Assembly (NCBI GenBank): GCA_947178215.1
Contig: CAMWXJ010000001.1
Coordinates: 1-64,000, forward strand
From: an uncultured Porphyromonadaceae bacterium
GTDB taxonomy: Bacteria; Bacteroidota; Bacteroidia; Bacteroidales; Muribaculaceae
Direction: 5' to 3'
DNA length: 64,000 bases
Shown here: positions 3,502-54,241 of the stretch, in pieces
Layout: the number at the start of each line of letters is the position of its first letter
Numbering within the stretch: the stretch's first letter is position 1
Notes under the pieces: model-generated
Told to the model about the DNA's origin: nothing
Seen by the model: only the letters and a program-made list of their open reading frames with translations
The model's database searches: none
Made by a program: the position numbers and the translations under genes

Positions 3502-5222
3502 TTTGAGGGATAATGTTTTTTATGTTTGGAGCGAGGGAAGCGGCGCTGGCGATCCGGCTTCTCGGACTTTTCGGACTTCACGGACTTCACGGACTTCTCG
3601 GACTTTTCGGACCGGTCCGCAGATTCTGAGTTGTCTGAGTTGTCCGCAACAGCCTCGTCGAGTCCGAAGCAGGCTTTGACGGCGCGGCGTATGCGCTCGG
3701 CGCCATTGCTTTCATCGCGGAGCATCTGCAGAATGGTCTTGATATACTCATCTTTGTTTTTCAGTCCGCACAGTCCGGCCACATTGCAGGCTGCCACCAT
3801 TGACTTCTGGTTATACACTTTGAGCACTGCCGGATAGTTGCCGCTCGCGTCGTAGCTGCGGAACTGGCGGCAGAAGTTCTCGTAGAGTCCGCGGGCGTTG
3901 ATTTCCTGAGTAAGATGTGCTATGTGCTCTTCCAGCATGTTGATGTTGGCGAAGCGTCCGTCGACACGATATTCCATGATGCGTTTCACGCGGTGACGGG
4001 TGTGCATCAGCGCCTGAGCGCGCAGGTCGTGGCGGAACTGTGACAGTATCGAGCTGCGTACTTTCTGAAACACTGTGTTTTCATCCTTGTGGCGGTACGA
4101 CGCCACGGCGCGCACCACTTCTTCGAGTATCAGTATGTTCTCGATTTCGGCCACATCCGGCACCATGATGCGGCGTCCGCGAAGATAGGCTACTTCCTTG
4201 TCGTCGCGGCGGTCGCGGTCGACAATGCCGCGCGAGTCGAGGTGATGAAAGCCCGACAGGTCGTTGAATGTGCGCGTGGCCTCAATCACCTTGTTGCAGC
4301 TTCCGAGGCTTGTCACCGAATAGTCCTTGAACAGTAGCGGATAAAGCTGTGCGTCGATGGAGTGGATGCCGTCGCCCTCGATGAAAAGCACCGGCTTGCG
4401 AGAGCCCATAATGGCGAGGTAGACGCCGTCGGAGAGCTGCGAGTGGGGCGGCATGAGTTCGTAGTCCCACGCCACTATGCCCGGGTCGAAGCGGCGCACC
4501 CATATCGTGGAGGCGTCGGTGCGCGATGATGCGAAGCCGAGGTCGTGGGTGACGTAGACAAACGAGCAGTCGCGGCGCAGAAGCTCTATGCGGTTCCACA
4601 GGCTCTGCATGAGCGAGGGATGGAGAAACATCTCCGGGCTGTCGACAAAAATCACAGCGCTCTTGGGCGCGTAGAGTATGGCGCCAAGATAGTAGATGAC
4701 TGCCTTCTCGCCTGCCGACAGCTTTATTGCCGAGTAGGGATTGGCCACGTTCTCGTCTTGGCGGGAGAAGAGCATGCGGCCGCTCTCGATGAGGATGCGG
4801 TTGTCGGGAAACACTTCCTGCCACAGCTCTATTACCTTGTCGAGCCGCGTGGGCACGAGGCTGCTCTTGATGCCGGCGGCGTGCGACGCCTTGTAGCGGA
4901 ACAGATTGACCATTTCGTCGTGGACCAGCAGGTGGAGAAGGCGGTCGAACTGCGTAGCCGTAGGTTCGCTCTGGTAGCCGGGTTGCACCGCATCGTAGAG
5001 GCTGTCGACGGAGTCGGGCACGCGCCGCGGGTCGTAGAGGCCGCGCAGGGCCGACACGTTGAACACCGGTCTCGGGTCGGGCGCGGCGGCGACATCGGCG
5101 GCGAGGCGCTGCGCAAAACGGGTCTTGCCGGCACCATTGGCGCCGACAATCACTGTCTGACGTCCCGGGCCGATTACAGGCGTCTCGCTGCCGTCGATTC
5201 GGTTGGGAAGATGAATGGCCAT
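3498..5222 (-). CDS. AAA/ABC-type ATPase fused to a DUF4435 (Toprim-like) domain, with low-complexity C-terminal tail
   Basis: Walker A GANGAGKT, signature-like LSAGEKA, Walker B VIFVDSPE, H-loop YVTHD, then LFIEGDG...GIVDRDRRDD...EIENILILEE typical of DUF4435; tail SDNSDNSESADRSEKSEKSVKSVKSEKSEK. Confidence 0.8.
   Translation of the reverse strand: MAIHLPNRIDGSETPVIGPGRQTVIVGANGAGKTRFAQRLAADVAAAPDPRPVFNVSALRGLYDPRRVPDSVDSLYDAVQPGYQSEPTATQFDRLLHLLVHDEMVNLFRYKASHAAGIKSSLVPTRLDKVIELWQEVFPDNRILIESGRMLFSRQDENVANPYSAIKLSAGEKAVIYYLGAILYAPKSAVIFVDSPEMFLHPSLMQSLWNRIELLRRDCSFVYVTHDLGFASSRTDASTIWVRRFDPGIVAWDYELMPPHSQLSDGVYLAIMGSRKPVLFIEGDGIHSIDAQLYPLLFKDYSVTSLGSCNKVIEATRTFNDLSGFHHLDSRGIVDRDRRDDKEVAYLRGRRIMVPDVAEIENILILEEVVRAVASYRHKDENTVFQKVRSSILSQFRHDLRAQALMHTRHRVKRIMEYRVDGRFANINMLEEHIAHLTQEINARGLYENFCRQFRSYDASGNYPAVLKVYNQKSMVAACNVAGLCGLKNKDEYIKTILQMLRDESNGAERIRRAVKACFGLDEAVADNSDNSESADRSEKSEKSVKSVKSEKSEKPDRQRRFPRSKHKKHYPSK
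3559..3650. repeat. 9-bp minisatellite (CGGACTTNN and TCTGAGTTG-type units) inside the 3' end of the AAA-DUF4435 gene
   Basis: ctcggactt ttcggactt cacggactt cacggactt ctcggactt ttcggaccg... then tctgagttgtctgagttg. Confidence 0.85.
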
Positions 5223-6925: not shown

Positions 6926-8412
6926 ATCTCGCGGTGGCGTTCGTTGCCCTCGACGTATATCGCGCTGAACGGGCGCGCCGGGCACACATATTCGCATGCA
7001 CCGCAGCCGATACATTTCTCTGTGTCCACCATGGGAATCTGTATCGACTCCGGGTCATCGGCCACAGACGCAATCATGGTTATGGCCCCCGAGGGGCAGT
7101 GACGGGTGCAGTTGCCGCAGGGCACGCCGTCGACGAGCGGTATGCAGTTGTCTTTTATCCACACGGCGCGGCCTATCTGTATGGCGCTCTTTTCTTCGAC
7201 AGTGACGGGGAGTATGGCGCCGGCAGGGCACGCGTCGCCACATTCAGTGCACTCAGGGCGGCAGTAGCCGTTCTCATATGAGCTCACCGGCTGCATGAAC
7301 CTACTGAGGTCGGTCGAGGGACGAAGCACCCCATTTGGACACGACGACACACAGAGCTGACAGGCAGTGCAGTGTTGCTGGAGATGACGCAGGCTTACCG
7401 CTCCGGGTGGCACGATAGGTGTGGTGCGGGCGGGTGCCTTTTTGTCGGTTATGGCGGCGAGGCCGCCGTCGACCTTGTTGGAGGCGGCTTTGACGGCCGA
7501 TGTCGCCGCCGCTATGCCTATGCCGGTGACGAATGCGCGGCGGCTCTCGTCGACCTTGTCGCCTCCCGAGGGCTTGTCGGCCTTGGGGCGACGGGTGGTG
7601 TAAGATATGGCTCCGTGCGTACAGTTGTCGATGCAGTCCATGCACGCCACGCAACGCGAGTAGTCGATAGCGTGGTTGGCGGCGTCGATGCACGCGCCCT
7701 TGCAGGAGCGGGCACAGAGGCCGCAGTTGACGCACTTGGAGGTGTCGATAACCGGTTTGAGCCACGACACGCGCGAGATGAAGCCGAGCAGGGTTCCTAC
7801 CGGGCATATCGTGTTGCACCATGTGCGGCCGTTGCGCCAGGCGAGTACGGCTATGACGGCGACTTCGATGAGCGCCACCGCTACCACTGCCAGGCTCTGC
7901 ATGCGATAGCCGAGGGTGTAGAACGTGTAGCTGTCGGCTTTGGATGCCATGTCGGCCAGCAGATTGTTGATTGTGATTGCGAGCGGTCCAAATGTAGAGC
8001 TCACAAAGCGCCCGTAGATGCTGTAAGGCTCGATGAGTGCGGGAATCACGGCGATTCCGGCTATCAGAGCGATTACGAAAATCACGAGCATGGCCACACG
8101 TAGCCATGTGATGGCGTGGGAATAACGGTACTTGTAGCGGTGCCGGTTGCTGCCGCGGCGTCCGAGCCAACCTATGAAGTCCTGAGTGACGCCGAGAGGG
8201 CATATGACGGAGCAGTAGACGCGGCCCAGCAGCAGTGTGAGCAGCAGCAGGGCTGTCACCACGCCCACGTTGATGGCGAGTATTGCGGGGATGAGCTGGA
8301 TTTTGGCGAGCCACCCTATCCATGGCCTTATCACGCTGGTGAAGTCGAGGAAGAGCATCGTCACCCCAACCCAGAATATTATGGCGAGTGTGATGCGTAT
8401 TTTGCGTAACAT
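6922..8412 (-). CDS. Membrane-bound polyferredoxin (NapH-like N-terminus fused to a NapG-like multi-[4Fe-4S] C-terminus)
   Basis: N-terminal TM helices, CSVICPLG and CNTICPVG; cysteine clusters CVNCGLCARSC, CVACMDCIDNC, CTACQLCVSSC, CTECGDACP, CGNCTRHCP, CIGCGACEYVC; internal RRAFVTGIGIAAATSAVKA. Confidence 0.85.
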   Translation of the reverse strand: MLRKIRITLAIIFWVGVTMLFLDFTSVIRPWIGWLAKIQLIPAILAINVGVVTALLLLTLLLGRVYCSVICPLGVTQDFIGWLGRRGSNRHRYKYRYSHAITWLRVAMLVIFVIALIAGIAVIPALIEPYSIYGRFVSSTFGPLAITINNLLADMASKADSYTFYTLGYRMQSLAVVAVALIEVAVIAVLAWRNGRTWCNTICPVGTLLGFISRVSWLKPVIDTSKCVNCGLCARSCKGACIDAANHAIDYSRCVACMDCIDNCTHGAISYTTRRPKADKPSGGDKVDESRRAFVTGIGIAAATSAVKAASNKVDGGLAAITDKKAPARTTPIVPPGAVSLRHLQQHCTACQLCVSSCPNGVLRPSTDLSRFMQPVSSYENGYCRPECTECGDACPAGAILPVTVEEKSAIQIGRAVWIKDNCIPLVDGVPCGNCTRHCPSGAITMIASVADDPESIQIPMVDTEKCIGCGACEYVCPARPFSAIYVEGNERHREI

Positions 8413-10441: not shown

Positions 10442-11182
10442 TTATTTGAAAGTTATGTCTACGTGGCGCCACAACCGTTGCGGGATGAGGTTCCACAAGG
10501 CGTTGACGATGCGCCAGCGCGAGTCGATGACGGCTACGCGGCGGCGTTTCACAACCGCCCGCTCCACAAGGCGCGATGCCTCGTCGAGCGTCATTATCAT
10601 TGGATAGTCTTTGTCGGGGTCGAGTAGAGGAGTGCGTATAAATCCGGGCCGGATGTCGGTAAAGGCCACGTTGACCTGCTGAGTGTAGGCGAGCTGTTCG
10701 AGTGAGTTGATAAACTGTACCTGGAAGCGCTTCGACGCGCTGTAAGCGGCCGCGATGCCGAGCCCTTTGGTGGCGGCCACTGAGGTCACTACGGCAATCT
10801 GTCCCTGAGTGCGGTTGGCGGTGGCGCGGAAATATTTGTAGGCTTCCGACACGATGCGGGCGAAGCCTACCACATTGACAGCGAGTGTGTCGGTGAGCTT
10901 GGCATCGTCGAGCTGAGGATCGGAGAACCCCGTGCCCGAGCAATATAGCAGTGTGTCCATGCCGTCCATCTCCTCTATGAGGTCGCCGAACTTGCGCGCG
11001 GCGTCGGGTGCGGTAACGTCGATAGCCGACACCTTTATAGTGTCGGGATACTGGGTCTGCAATGCCTGCATCGGTTCAAGACGCCTGGCGGCCATGCCGA
11101 CCTGCCAGCCTGCGGCAGCGAAATCTTCAGCTGCACGGAGCCCTATGCCTGATGAGGCACCTACAATGATAATCTTCTTCAT
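10442..11182 (-). CDS. Short-chain dehydrogenase/reductase (SDR family)
   Basis: IIIVGASSGIGLRAAEDFA, CSGTGF, YSASKRFQVQF. Confidence 0.92.
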   Translation of the reverse strand: MKKIIIVGASSGIGLRAAEDFAAAGWQVGMAARRLEPMQALQTQYPDTIKVSAIDVTAPDAARKFGDLIEEMDGMDTLLYCSGTGFSDPQLDDAKLTDTLAVNVVGFARIVSEAYKYFRATANRTQGQIAVVTSVAATKGLGIAAAYSASKRFQVQFINSLEQLAYTQQVNVAFTDIRPGFIRTPLLDPDKDYPMIMTLDEASRLVERAVVKRRRVAVIDSRWRIVNALWNLIPQRLWRHVDITFK

Positions 11183-49663: not shown

Positions 49664-50962
49664 ATGTCAAAAGTATCTATCATCATAGGGCGCGAATATG
49701 CCGAGCGCGTCAAGAAAAAAAGCTTTATCTTCACCACCATACTGATGCCGCTGTTCATGCTGGCGCTCATGGCAGTTCCCGCGCTCATCGTGGCGATGGG
49801 AGGCACCGAGACCCGCACTGTCACCGTCGTCGACCCCGACGGCGTAGTGGCTCCGCAGCTCGTCGACACCGACAATGTGAAGTTTGTCATCGCCACAGCC
49901 GGCACCGACACCGTGGCCGCGTCAGCCGACGACGATGCCACGCTGCTCTTTATCCCCCAAGGCATCGTGGAGGGCGACAAGCCTTTGCGTCTCGTCACCG
50001 GCAAAGCCGCGTCGATGATGCTCGAAAACGAGATTTCCTCGCAGATAGAGCGGATAGTGGAGGGCGAGCGCATGAAGCTCTACGACATCGACGTAAAGAG
50101 CATAATGGCCGCTGTGGAGTCGAATCTCAGCGTCAATACCGTGCGCACCGACCGCGACACCGTGGGGTCGTCGACCATGAGCTATGCGCTCGGTTTCATA
50201 CTCACGTTCCTGCTCTACATGATGCTTCTGCTTTACGGCCAGATGGTGATGACCTCGATTATCGAGGAGAAGAACAATCGCGTGCTTGAAGTGATAGTGT
50301 CGAGCGTGAAGCCCACCCGTCTGATGCTCGGCAAGATAGCCGGTATCGGCCTGGTGGCCGTGACGCAGATAGTGATTTGGGGCGTGCTGATAGTGGGGCT
50401 CTCGGCGGCAGTGATGCCCGCCCTGCTGCCGGCCGATGTCGCTGCCGACATAACCGCCATGAACAGCGGCGCCGGCACTCTGGCGCAGTCAAATCTCGAC
50501 ACCGACCTGCTCAGTGCCCTCGCCTTAATCGCCGACCCGATGTATATCCTCGGCATCTTCGGCATACTGTTGCTCTTCCTTATCGGCGGATTCCTGCTCT
50601 ATGCCGCTATCTACGCCGCAATCGGCTCGGCCGTCGACAACATCCAGGACGCCTCGCAGCTCCAGACTGTCGCCGTGCTCCCCATCATTCTCGGCATCGT
50701 GTTTGGCATGATGGCCGCCACCGACCCGGTGTCCAACATCTCCGTATGGACCTCGATAATTCCGTTCACCTCGCCCATGGTGATGATGTCGCGCATACCC
50801 TACGGCATCCCGACATGGCAGATTGTGACGTCGCTCGTGGTGCTGTATGCCACCTTTGCAGCGTGCGTGTGGGTTGCTGCCAAGATTTACCGCGTGGGCA
50901 TATTCATGTACGGCAAGAAACCCACGTTCAAGGAGCTTATCCGCTGGGCACGCTATAAGTGA
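49664..50962 (+). CDS. ABC-2 type transporter permease (NatB-like)
   Basis: YAERVKKKSFIFTTILMPLFMLALM, VIVSSVKPTRLMLGKIAGIGLVAVTQIVIW. Confidence 0.93.
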   Translation: MSKVSIIIGREYAERVKKKSFIFTTILMPLFMLALMAVPALIVAMGGTETRTVTVVDPDGVVAPQLVDTDNVKFVIATAGTDTVAASADDDATLLFIPQGIVEGDKPLRLVTGKAASMMLENEISSQIERIVEGERMKLYDIDVKSIMAAVESNLSVNTVRTDRDTVGSSTMSYALGFILTFLLYMMLLLYGQMVMTSIIEEKNNRVLEVIVSSVKPTRLMLGKIAGIGLVAVTQIVIWGVLIVGLSAAVMPALLPADVAADITAMNSGAGTLAQSNLDTDLLSALALIADPMYILGIFGILLLFLIGGFLLYAAIYAAIGSAVDNIQDASQLQTVAVLPIILGIVFGMMAATDPVSNISVWTSIIPFTSPMVMMSRIPYGIPTWQIVTSLVVLYATFAACVWVAAKIYRVGIFMYGKKPTFKELIRWARYK

Positions 50963-51087
50963 CGCGTACTCGCGGTTGTGTCTTTCGCGTATGCCGGCTC
51001 GGAGTTTATCCGGGTCGGCATACGTGCTTCCACGCCTACACGGTTGTGACTGACCGTTAATAGTGACTTTTGTATTAACGCCACAGT

Positions 51088-51324
51088 GTAACCCTGTAAC
51101 CCTCGAGGGTTACACCGGGTTACATGGGTTACACCGGGTTACATGGGTTACGGTGGGTTACACCGGGTTACACCGGGTTACATGGGTTACATGGGTTACA
51201 TGGGTTACATGGGTTACACCGGGTTACACCGGGTTACACCGGGTTACACTGGGTTACACGGGTTACACCGGTTACACGGGTTACATGGGTTACACGGGTT
51301 ACACCGGGTTACGCGGGTTACACT
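51088..51324. repeat. GGGTTAC minisatellite array (9-10 bp units): 2 inverted units, 20-bp palindrome, about 23 direct units
   Basis: Units GGGTTACAT, GGGTTACACC, GGGTTACGGT; palindrome TGTAACCCTCGAGGGTTACA at 51095-51114. Confidence 0.97.
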
Positions 51325-51448
51325 GGGCCAAAGAGATTACGTTGCGGGTGGAAATAGCCAAGAGCATATGCTATGGACCAAAACAGTCGGGACCATACTA
51401 AGAGTGGCCAATATCAACGCATCTTTGCTTGGCTGCTATTGCCCTCGT

Positions 51449-51605
51449 TATTAAATATATATTTATATATAGATACTTATATATTATATAGGCATTTGTG
51501 TTATATATAATATATTATATTTATATATAGGCGTATATGATATATATAGATATATATTATAAAGGTATATAGGTATATATATTATATAGATATATATTGT
51601 TATAC
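51449..51605. repeat. Nearly pure A/T tract (TATATA-rich)
   Basis: ttattaaatatatatttatatatagatacttatatattatatagg...; stark contrast with the GC-rich surroundings. Confidence 0.95.
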
Positions 51606-51706
51606 GGGCTATATTTATTTGGCAGCCCCCGAGAATATCGATATATCAGCGCACCATGTCATGGCTACCGGTAACAGGACACATTGGCCTAAGCGGAGGG
51701 CGTGGA

Positions 51707-51794
51707 GTGTAACCCGTGTAACCCATGTAACCCTCCCTGCGTATGGGTTACACCGGGTTACGGTGGGTTACGGTGGGTTACGCAGGGTTACACC
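51707..51794. repeat. Second GGGTTAC cluster: 3 inverted and 5 direct units around a 10-bp spacer
   Basis: gtgtaacccgtgtaacccatgtaaccct-ccctgcgtat-gggttacaccgggttacggtgggttacggtgggttacgcagggttacacc. Confidence 0.95.
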
Positions 51795-51888
51795 GCTTGT
51801 GTAAGCCGCTTGCCTATGTTACTGCCTATGTTGCCGGGCCGATAATATATCTTGGTGGCAAACGGCTTGGCATCGGAAGAATTTTTGT

Positions 51889-51896
51889 TACTTTTG
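51889..51896 (+). promoter_or_regulatory. -7 box (TACTTTTG) upstream of the S8 peptidase gene
   Basis: TACTTTTG about 70 bp upstream of the ATG. Confidence 0.5.
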
Positions 51897-51967
51897 CAGG
51901 ATAAAGCGGTAGATGTCGCCGACGCTCAGGTCATGTCGCCCGCTAATTCCACTCACACTCTTATATC

Positions 51968-54241
51968 ATGATGCTCAAACCCAAGAAGTTGACAGCGCTT
52001 GCCGCAGCTCTCGCGCTTGCCGCCGGAGTCTCGGCTCAGACGAAACTCAGCCCCGGCGCCATTGTCAGGCTGCAGAAATATCACACCGACGCAGCCGCAA
52101 GCCGCGGCAAGAACGCCGATGCCGCAGTGCTCGCCACCTTCGAGGTGGCGTCGGCCGATGCCGTCGACTCGATATGCGCCCTCGGTGCGTCGGTCGTCGA
52201 CCGTTTCGGCGACTTTGCGATAGTGAGGTTGCCGCTTGCGGTAGCCGAGCAAGCTGCCGCCATAGCATCGGTGAGGGGAGTGGAGTTTGGCACCGAAGCG
52301 CGCCCTCTGCTCGACGAGGCCCGTCGCTACGCCAATGTGAATCAGGTCCACGCCGGAACCGACATAAAGATGCCTTTCACCGGCAAGAATGTTGTGGTAG
52401 GCATTATCGACGAAGGCTTTGACCCGCTGCATCCCGCGTTTCTTGATGCCGACGGCAACCCGCGAAGCCGTCTGTTCTACACCTCCAATATCATGACCCG
52501 CGAAATATCGGAGTACGACGACCTGTTGGAGTTTGAGACCGACAAAAAGGATGCAACCCACGGCACCCATGTGGCCGGAATAGCGGCGGGAAGCCGCAGC
52601 GACAAAGCCATAATGCCTATCTTGTCGGAGCCTGACGCCGCGGGCGTAGTCAGGATTGAATCGGTGGGCGAGGGCAAGCTTCCGTACTACGGCATGGCCC
52701 CCGACGCCGACGTGGCTATGGCCGCCGGAGGCCTTGATTACTCCACCATACTGGCGGGAGCGAGAGCGATTATCAAATATGCTCAATCAGTGGGAAAACC
52801 GGCCGTAATCAACATGTCGCTCGGCACCAACAGCGGCCCCCACGACGGAACGACTACTTTCAACCGCGCGCTTGCCGAGTTGGGCAAAAGCGCTATATTC
52901 ACTGTTGCGGCCGGCAACGAGGGGAGTCAGAACATAAGCATCGACTATGTGGTGCCCACCGCCACCTCGGGCTATTTCTCCACACTGTTGGACCTCGACG
53001 GATACACGGCGTCGGAACCATGCCAAGTAATGTCTGTCGATTTTGTGGGCTTGAACTGCAAAAGCCTGAGCTGCACCCTTGTCGGCGTCGACCGCACCAC
53101 AGGCATGACGGTGTTCTCAGTGCCTATTACCGTCAATTCCAATGAAGTAGATGCGGATATGGGCAGCTACTACCCATTCCAGGATGCCGACAAGATGCGT
53201 ATAAGGAAGTATTTCAGCTTCGGCGAGGGCGGCGGTATGATAGGCCGCCGTGCCGACAACGGTTCTTATCGCGGCTGGGTCTATATGTCGGATTTGGCTC
53301 CGCTCGCCTCCAACAAATCGGTGTCGCTCGGAATCCGTATCAGCTCTACGGGTGATGCCGGCCGCCGCATGCAGGCGTTTACCAGCTCAAAATACCAGTT
53401 CACTTCCGGCGGCGTAAAGGATTATATCGACGGCACTCCCGACCTGTCAATCTCCGACATGGCTACCGGCGACAATATCATCTCCGTAGGCTCGTACAAT
53501 TCCCGCTACATGTGGCCCTGTCTTGGCAAATATTTCCTCGGTTACAGCGCGGATGCTTTTCCGATAAAAGAGCCGTCGTCATTCAGCTCCTATGGTGAGC
53601 TTTTCGACGGTCGCCGCCTGCCCCACATAAGCGCGCCCGGCGCCATGCTCGTATCGTCTATAAGCCGCTACACAGAGCCGGCAGTCGCAGAACGCAATAA
53701 TATTCCGGCCGAGCTTGCCGCCCCCGACGGCGTGTCGCCCACAGGTCAGTATTACCAGTTGATGGGCACGTCGATGGCTGCGCCCGCAACCGCCGGCATC
53801 ATCGCGCTGTGGCTCGAAGCCGACCCCGAGCTTACCGTCGACGACATAAAGGATATAATGCAGAAGACCGCCATCAAGGACGACAACTACTACAAAGGTA
53901 ACAACGCTCTGCGCGAGGGAGCCGGCCGTATCGATGCCTATGCCGGCGTCAAGGAGGTGCTTCTGCGCCGCGGCGACACCGGCATAGCCGACGTTGGCGC
54001 CGACAGCGAGGGCGACAGCGGCGTGATGTTTGACATTGCCGAGGGGCGTGTGTCGGCCTTCATTGCCGGCGCCTCCTCCACCACGTTAACGATAACCACC
54101 ACAGCCGGAGCCTCCGCAGGCTCCGTCAGCTCCACCGGCTCCGAGGTCTCCGTGTCAACCGGTCACCTCGCCCCCGGAATCTACATAATCACAGCTACCG
54201 ACGGCAGGCGCCGCGCCTCGCGCAAGCTCGCCGTCAAGTAA
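51968..54241 (+). CDS. S8 family serine peptidase (subtilisin-like), secreted
   Basis: VVVGIIDEGFDPLHPAF, DATHGTHVAGIAAG, LMGTSMAAPATAGIIALWLE catalytic motifs. Confidence 0.94.
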   Translation: MMLKPKKLTALAAALALAAGVSAQTKLSPGAIVRLQKYHTDAAASRGKNADAAVLATFEVASADAVDSICALGASVVDRFGDFAIVRLPLAVAEQAAAIASVRGVEFGTEARPLLDEARRYANVNQVHAGTDIKMPFTGKNVVVGIIDEGFDPLHPAFLDADGNPRSRLFYTSNIMTREISEYDDLLEFETDKKDATHGTHVAGIAAGSRSDKAIMPILSEPDAAGVVRIESVGEGKLPYYGMAPDADVAMAAGGLDYSTILAGARAIIKYAQSVGKPAVINMSLGTNSGPHDGTTTFNRALAELGKSAIFTVAAGNEGSQNISIDYVVPTATSGYFSTLLDLDGYTASEPCQVMSVDFVGLNCKSLSCTLVGVDRTTGMTVFSVPITVNSNEVDADMGSYYPFQDADKMRIRKYFSFGEGGGMIGRRADNGSYRGWVYMSDLAPLASNKSVSLGIRISSTGDAGRRMQAFTSSKYQFTSGGVKDYIDGTPDLSISDMATGDNIISVGSYNSRYMWPCLGKYFLGYSADAFPIKEPSSFSSYGELFDGRRLPHISAPGAMLVSSISRYTEPAVAERNNIPAELAAPDGVSPTGQYYQLMGTSMAAPATAGIIALWLEADPELTVDDIKDIMQKTAIKDDNYYKGNNALREGAGRIDAYAGVKEVLLRRGDTGIADVGADSEGDSGVMFDIAEGRVSAFIAGASSTTLTITTTAGASAGSVSSTGSEVSVSTGHLAPGIYIITATDGRRRASRKLAVK

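Follow-up and report, generated by a model that had tools for sequence, protein, structure and literature searches.

Paired GGGTTAC arrays around an A/T-rich tract in a Muribaculaceae genome: a probable dispersed copy of the iterons of a DUF6371/AAA_25 replication module

Introduction

Phage P4 has the alpha protein, the sites ori1 and crr, and the word GGTGAACA, and the origins of SaPIs consist of two iteron sets around an A/T-rich stretch. Both resemble the arrays described here in having short iterons in two orientations beside helicase-primase genes and two sets around an A/T stretch, and the P4 word resembles the TGAACA words of the cassettes in relatives of this genome. However, their proteins belong to other families, and the element in the window (the whole stretch of 64,000 nucleotides analysed) is an orphan, chromosomal and multi-copy. 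In both P4 and SaPIs the initiator has helicase as well as primase activity (PMC7145576).

DUF6371 appears among the genes listed for Tn4555 in one paper (PMC13183296), which was the only mention retrieved from the open full-text literature. The module of Tn4555-type mobilizable transposons (an AAA ATPase and DUF6371) comprises the same two gene families as the cassette of the present genome, with a palindromic array at 9-10-bp spacing between or beside them. A Tn4555-like circular DNA (CP103138) and a Butyricimonas plasmid showed the cassette layout with the word TGTCCC, whereas the word here is GGGTTAC and the window element has no genes. Tn4555/NBU-type elements also carry an integrase, an excisionase and a relaxase, none of which was seen in the ORFs adjoining the primase and the helicase here. 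The PINSR repeat of Prevotella intermedia (188-bp unit, about 180 copies; PMC4755523) is likewise an intergenic repeat restricted to a species group, with neither coding content nor terminal inverted repeats, but it is not composed of iterons and has no primase link.

Anatomy of the element in the window

GGGTTAC was found 33 times in the whole window, where 4.9 occurrences were expected and none of 100 shuffles reached 33. Thirty-two of these words lie at 51088-51791, in the 1,005-bp gap (50963-51967) between the stop of a permease gene and the start of a subtilase gene (Table 1). The initial annotation, which described two clusters in about 1 kb of intergenic DNA, was thus right about the locus. 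Its unit counts (2+23 and 3+5) hold with one correction, as the 23 are 22 exact units at 51107-51321 plus an imperfect GGTTAC at about 51269. Between the clusters lie a flank of about 130 bp, the tract and a flank of about 100 bp. The tract has the length claimed, 155 bp, but is 88% A/T instead of almost only A and T; the GC content drops there to 0.14-0.15. Similarly, the start-to-start spacing is indeed 9 or 10 bp, which is slightly less than the helical turn it was compared with, so that successive units drift around the helix. The left array has a higher-order period of 76 bp (2.9 copies, 88%, by TRF), indicating that it has grown by segment duplication. Another tandem repeat of a 9-bp unit, CTTCTCGGA x 6.1 with 89% matches, occurs at 3558-3612.

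Table 1 Features of the GGGTTAC element and its flanks (positions in the window; C4, C6 and C41 are other contigs of the genome).
Feature	Positions	Strand	Remarks
ABC2_membrane_3 (ABC-2) permease gene	49664..50962	+	flanking, outside the element
Left cluster, two inverted units (TGTAACCC TGTAACCC)	51086..51102	-	units at 51088, 51096
Left palindromic core TCGA	51103..51106		also present in the C6 copy
Left cluster, direct part	51107..51323	+	22 exact GGGTTAC and 1 imperfect; 9-10 bp apart; 76-bp higher-order period
Inner flank A	51324..51449		87% identity to C6:349-491; the C4 end has a related piece
A/T tract	51450..51604		155 bp, 88% A+T; candidate strand-opening stretch
Inner flank B	51605..51706		kept in the C6 copy
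Right cluster, three inverted units	51707..51733	-	units 51709-51733
Right palindromic core TCCCTGCGTAT	51734..51744		kept in the right clusters of C6 and C4
Right cluster, five direct units	51745..51791	+	10 bp apart
Right outer end ACCGCTTGTGTAAG	51792..51805		common to the C41 short copy
Peptidase_S8 subtilase gene	51968..54241	+	flanking, outside the element

An assembly artefact, named in advance as a possible refutation, is unlikely, because the array is embedded in a contig of 162 kb, its units are not identical, and contig C6 carries an independent copy that has diverged. Four other GGGTTAC arrays fall at contig ends (C4, C6, C41 and C43), as expected of repeats. Other genes follow the permease gene in the closest congener, which therefore offered no orthologous site for an empty-site comparison at the window locus. 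An Rfam search of the window element returned no match, so a known RNA is not indicated, and no phage or plasmid carrying the element itself was matched in our searches. Neither a terminal duplication nor a transposase belonging to the element was found. With regard to a MITE-like element, the outer ends are shared with the short copy on C41, and no target duplication was seen by eye. We rejected a Y1/RAYT (REP-type) element, as the 320-bp repeats flanking the sole Y1 transposase contain no GGGTTAC. This RAYT-like gene (G000 C2:115336-116600; L038 2732-4056) adjoins a 320-bp tandem repeat family, in which a 22-nt motif matches the C4 array flank at 91%, too weakly for use.

Other copies in the same genome

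Paired GGGTTAC words were present only on C1 (the window site), at the end of C4, at the start of C6, on C41 (at its start and at 10,938-11,068) and at the end of C43. C6:1-547 and the window element form an alignment of 565 columns with 78% identity, arrays and A/T tract included; the starts of the two left clusters are 97% identical over 78 bp. The palindromic cores, inner flanks and A/T tract are kept at 78% or more between these two long copies. The ends of C4 and C6 have 53 identical bases in common, so the two contigs are probably neighbours, and they probably hold one long element, flanked on one side by a GH31-like gene (identified by eye) and on the other by a DUF3298 gene. The short copy at C41 10,938-11,068 has one cluster and no A/T tract, together with both outer ends of the window element, CCACAGYGTAACCC and TTAYACCGCTTGTGTAAG. 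In every cluster the inverted units lie on one side of the core and the direct units on the other, the C43 cluster being cut by the contig end. Beside the A/T tract, window positions 51377-51454 correspond to a small-ORF region of the C6 copy and are frameshifted; the minus strand of the C6 copy (L010 about 345-455) has a potential ORF for a hydrophobic peptide of 35 aa, MLWDKTVGAALRVANVNAIFALAVIILVIYIYIAM.

Two further arrays adjoin replication-type genes. The array at the C43 end lies about 15 bp upstream of the start codon of a 342-aa primase-type protein with Zn_ribbon_16 and DUF6371 (PG0870-related in NCBIfam), and the array at the C41 start lies about 200 bp upstream of an AAA_25 protein resembling phage primase/helicases and DnaB-like helicases. 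We infer that an array links C43 to C41. The genes neighbouring the primase and the helicase are TPR and Fe-ADH genes. The C43-end and C41-start arrays show the cassette layout, with a DUF6371 gene next to units that are inverted on the left and direct on the right; in the window the layout is present and the DUF6371 gene absent. As in iteron-type origins, the window copy has many short repeats near helical spacing (32 units) and an adjoining A/T-rich stretch, with a cluster on each side of 51450-51604. No cognate initiator gene was found in cis among the flanking genes.

Equivalent arrays at DUF6371 genes in relatives

Among 397 genomes of the family, GGGTTAC arrays are restricted to this species: none of the 396 relatives searched had a 3-unit array, and a single two-unit match was found in only 1 of 33 congeners. 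DUF6371 is present in 93 of the 397. Distant relatives of the AAA_25 helicase (36-39% identity) occur in three of the 33 congeners, and arrays of other words with the same layout were found there, which was then tested as a general rule. In the 220 bp upstream of 24 DUF6371 genes (non-redundant at 80% identity), a balanced palindromic 6-mer array was found in 12, compared with 1 of 99 control gene starts (Fisher P 2e-9, only indicative because the 24 genes are still related). About half of the DUF6371 genes had no array by the score used. The arrays of the relatives again have inverted units on the left and direct units on the right, at 8-10 bp spacing, with words other than GGGTTAC. These cassette words include TGTCCC, TGTTCAC, TGTTTC, TGTTATC, TGTTTTCC, TGTCCG, TGCATTTT, GCAGTT, TTGCAC and TACACTTT, and those beside AAA_25 helicases mostly start with TGT, like TGTAACCC in the window.

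A scan independent of the primase, for TGTTCA..TGTTCA..TGAACA across the 397 genomes, gave 24 places. Thirteen lay within 4 kb of a DUF6371 gene, most of those at less than 400 bp, whereas about 0.1% of the genome would qualify for such proximity. The TGAACA arrays were not dispersed away from the cassettes in those genomes; hence dispersal would need a cause not apparent in them and may be peculiar to the present species. At L321 (G209), L236 (G084), L232 (G235) and L196 (G008) the helicase gene has an array on either side, for example CGGACA with 8 + 8 units; these could be two-site origins.

The helicases of the other cassettes end in a C-terminal helix-turn-helix (HTH). Eleven helicases with TGAACA arrays, whose cores are down to 30% identical, have the recognition helix S(L/V/I)G(K/T/S)V(N/Q) in common. 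The helicase of L232 is nested within this TGAACA clade (support 99/97), yet it has GAAACA arrays and SVAKVHR in the recognition helix. The recognition helix thus appears to track the word, as would be expected of a protein-DNA code, in a comparison of small numbers and related rows. The HTH of the partner helicases is the likely reader of the word. This HTH is absent from the 285-aa helicase of the present genome, which sits on a very long branch of the tree. The presumed word reader is therefore missing here and present-day activity is doubtful; no other finding casts as much doubt on the system functioning here in the way it does in relatives.

Interpretation of the arrays

We consider it probable that the arrays are binding sites of a mobile-element replication module and that the window element is a dispersed, non-autonomous, origin-like copy, now a passive or titration site. 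The arrays would be iterons, with half-sites in tandem and in inverted order serving a module whose two proteins are a zinc-ribbon primase of the DUF6371/PG0870 type and a DnaB/RepA-like AAA_25 helicase. In general, the C-terminal HTH of the helicase would read the word and load the helicase beside the primase gene, and the A/T-rich stretch would be the place of strand opening. The window copy, which carries no replication gene, would be built like a replication origin; such copies may have spread to a few intergenic sites of one species and been lengthened by slippage or unequal exchange. Since the same word stands beside the primase/helicase pair elsewhere in the genome, the window stretch is most likely a stray landing-site copy, perhaps of a start-of-copying signal. 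Binding of the word by a protein of the module, a past or present role of the array as an origin, and the way in which the copies dispersed are our inferences. Given that the helicase of this genome has no HTH, the window copy today is probably either a relic or a site that is bound without being active. It is quite unlikely to be able to fire as an origin.

The same word and layout beside primase and helicase genes here, and the equivalent arrays of other words at relatives of this gene pair, bear out the earlier suggestion that the array is made of iterons or protein-binding sites and adjoins a tract that melts easily. Absence from close relatives had been named as a refuting observation, and GGGTTAC is literally absent from them, likely because each cassette lineage uses its own word.

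In a bolder and rather unlikely version, the window element is an orphan chromosomal origin or a decoy, at which GGGTTAC would recruit either the cassette's own module or that of an incoming element sharing the word, resulting in local copying or in titration and exclusion. More widely, DUF6371/AAA_25 modules would then use a fast-diversifying word and a changeable HTH to give each mobile element a private origin.

It is unlikely that the arrays are operators, at which an HTH protein of the cassette would control the primase and helicase genes, while dispersed copies would control the flanking genes (subtilase, AraC regulator, ECF sigma factor and GH31-like gene) or be accidental. Arrays directly upstream of primase start codons, such as the one about 15 bp before the ATG on C43, would suit this function, as would the dispersed copies upstream of genes, two of them in divergent intergenic regions. 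However, the array of the Tn4555-like DNA lies within the 3' end of the helicase gene, that of DUF927 systems is downstream of the gene, and an operator has no need of paired clusters around an A/T tract.

Still less likely is a neutral satellite, in which case an old iteron array would have been duplicated to a few sites, have grown by slippage and now serve no function. The 76-bp higher-order repeat, the restriction to this species, the apparent loss of the HTH from the cassette helicase and the frameshifted small ORF are consistent with it, but the cores, inner flanks and A/T tract are better kept between the long copies than expected of free satellite decay.

The earlier proposal of a replication, segregation or nucleoid-protein site is partly supported. 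The iteron class fits, but a nucleoid or chromosome-maintenance site common to Bacteroidales (for segregation, a macrodomain or the chromosomal origin) is highly improbable and largely refuted, because such sites are usually conserved and this one is absent from the 396 family relatives apart from a single two-unit match in one congener, and because copies adjoin a primase cassette of mobile-element type, even if an array beside an A/T tract and several copies per chromosome would fit.

The preferred reading, a dispersed copy of module binding sites, connects a seemingly meaningless minisatellite with DUF6371/AAA_25, a gene pair that is widespread yet unstudied; DUF6371 is found on antibiotic-resistance elements such as Tn4555. 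Lineage-specific words together with a changing HTH seem to offer a directly testable recognition code for the replication sites of Bacteroidales mobile elements. Dispersed copies with A/T tracts would, to our knowledge, be the first chromosomal orphan origins of this kind.

GGGTTAC arrays in other phyla

In a GTDB scan, whose worldwide counts are lower bounds, GGGTTAC arrays occurred in many bacteria among the matches listed and were mostly unidirectional. Seven of the ten loci among these matches that have both orientations near each other (L051, L055, L061, L063, L064, L145 and L074) adjoin DUF927 or Toprim primase-helicase genes; L060 and L104 have no recognised domain, and L081 flanks a 23S-IVP gene. 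DUF927 primase-helicase genes (Nitrobacter, Caballeronia, Marinobacter and others) have the arrays directly adjoining downstream in both orientations, like the cassette arrays, but differ in protein family and phylum from the Muribaculaceae cassette; the common word is probably convergent. A link to 23S-IVP (four-helix-bundle) genes was rejected, since the GTTACAT arrays of L081 have one orientation per side, unlike the window. In this Limisphaerales MAG, GTTACAT/GGGTTACAT arrays of opposite orientations flank the 23S_rRNA_IVP gene at 7086-7667. In the Bacteroidales MAG Tidjanibacter sp. RGIG4157, no primase gene was near the loci checked; its at least 8 unidirectional GGGTTACAA-type arrays (L049, L054, L066, L069, L080, L113, L124 and L126) are mostly intergenic.
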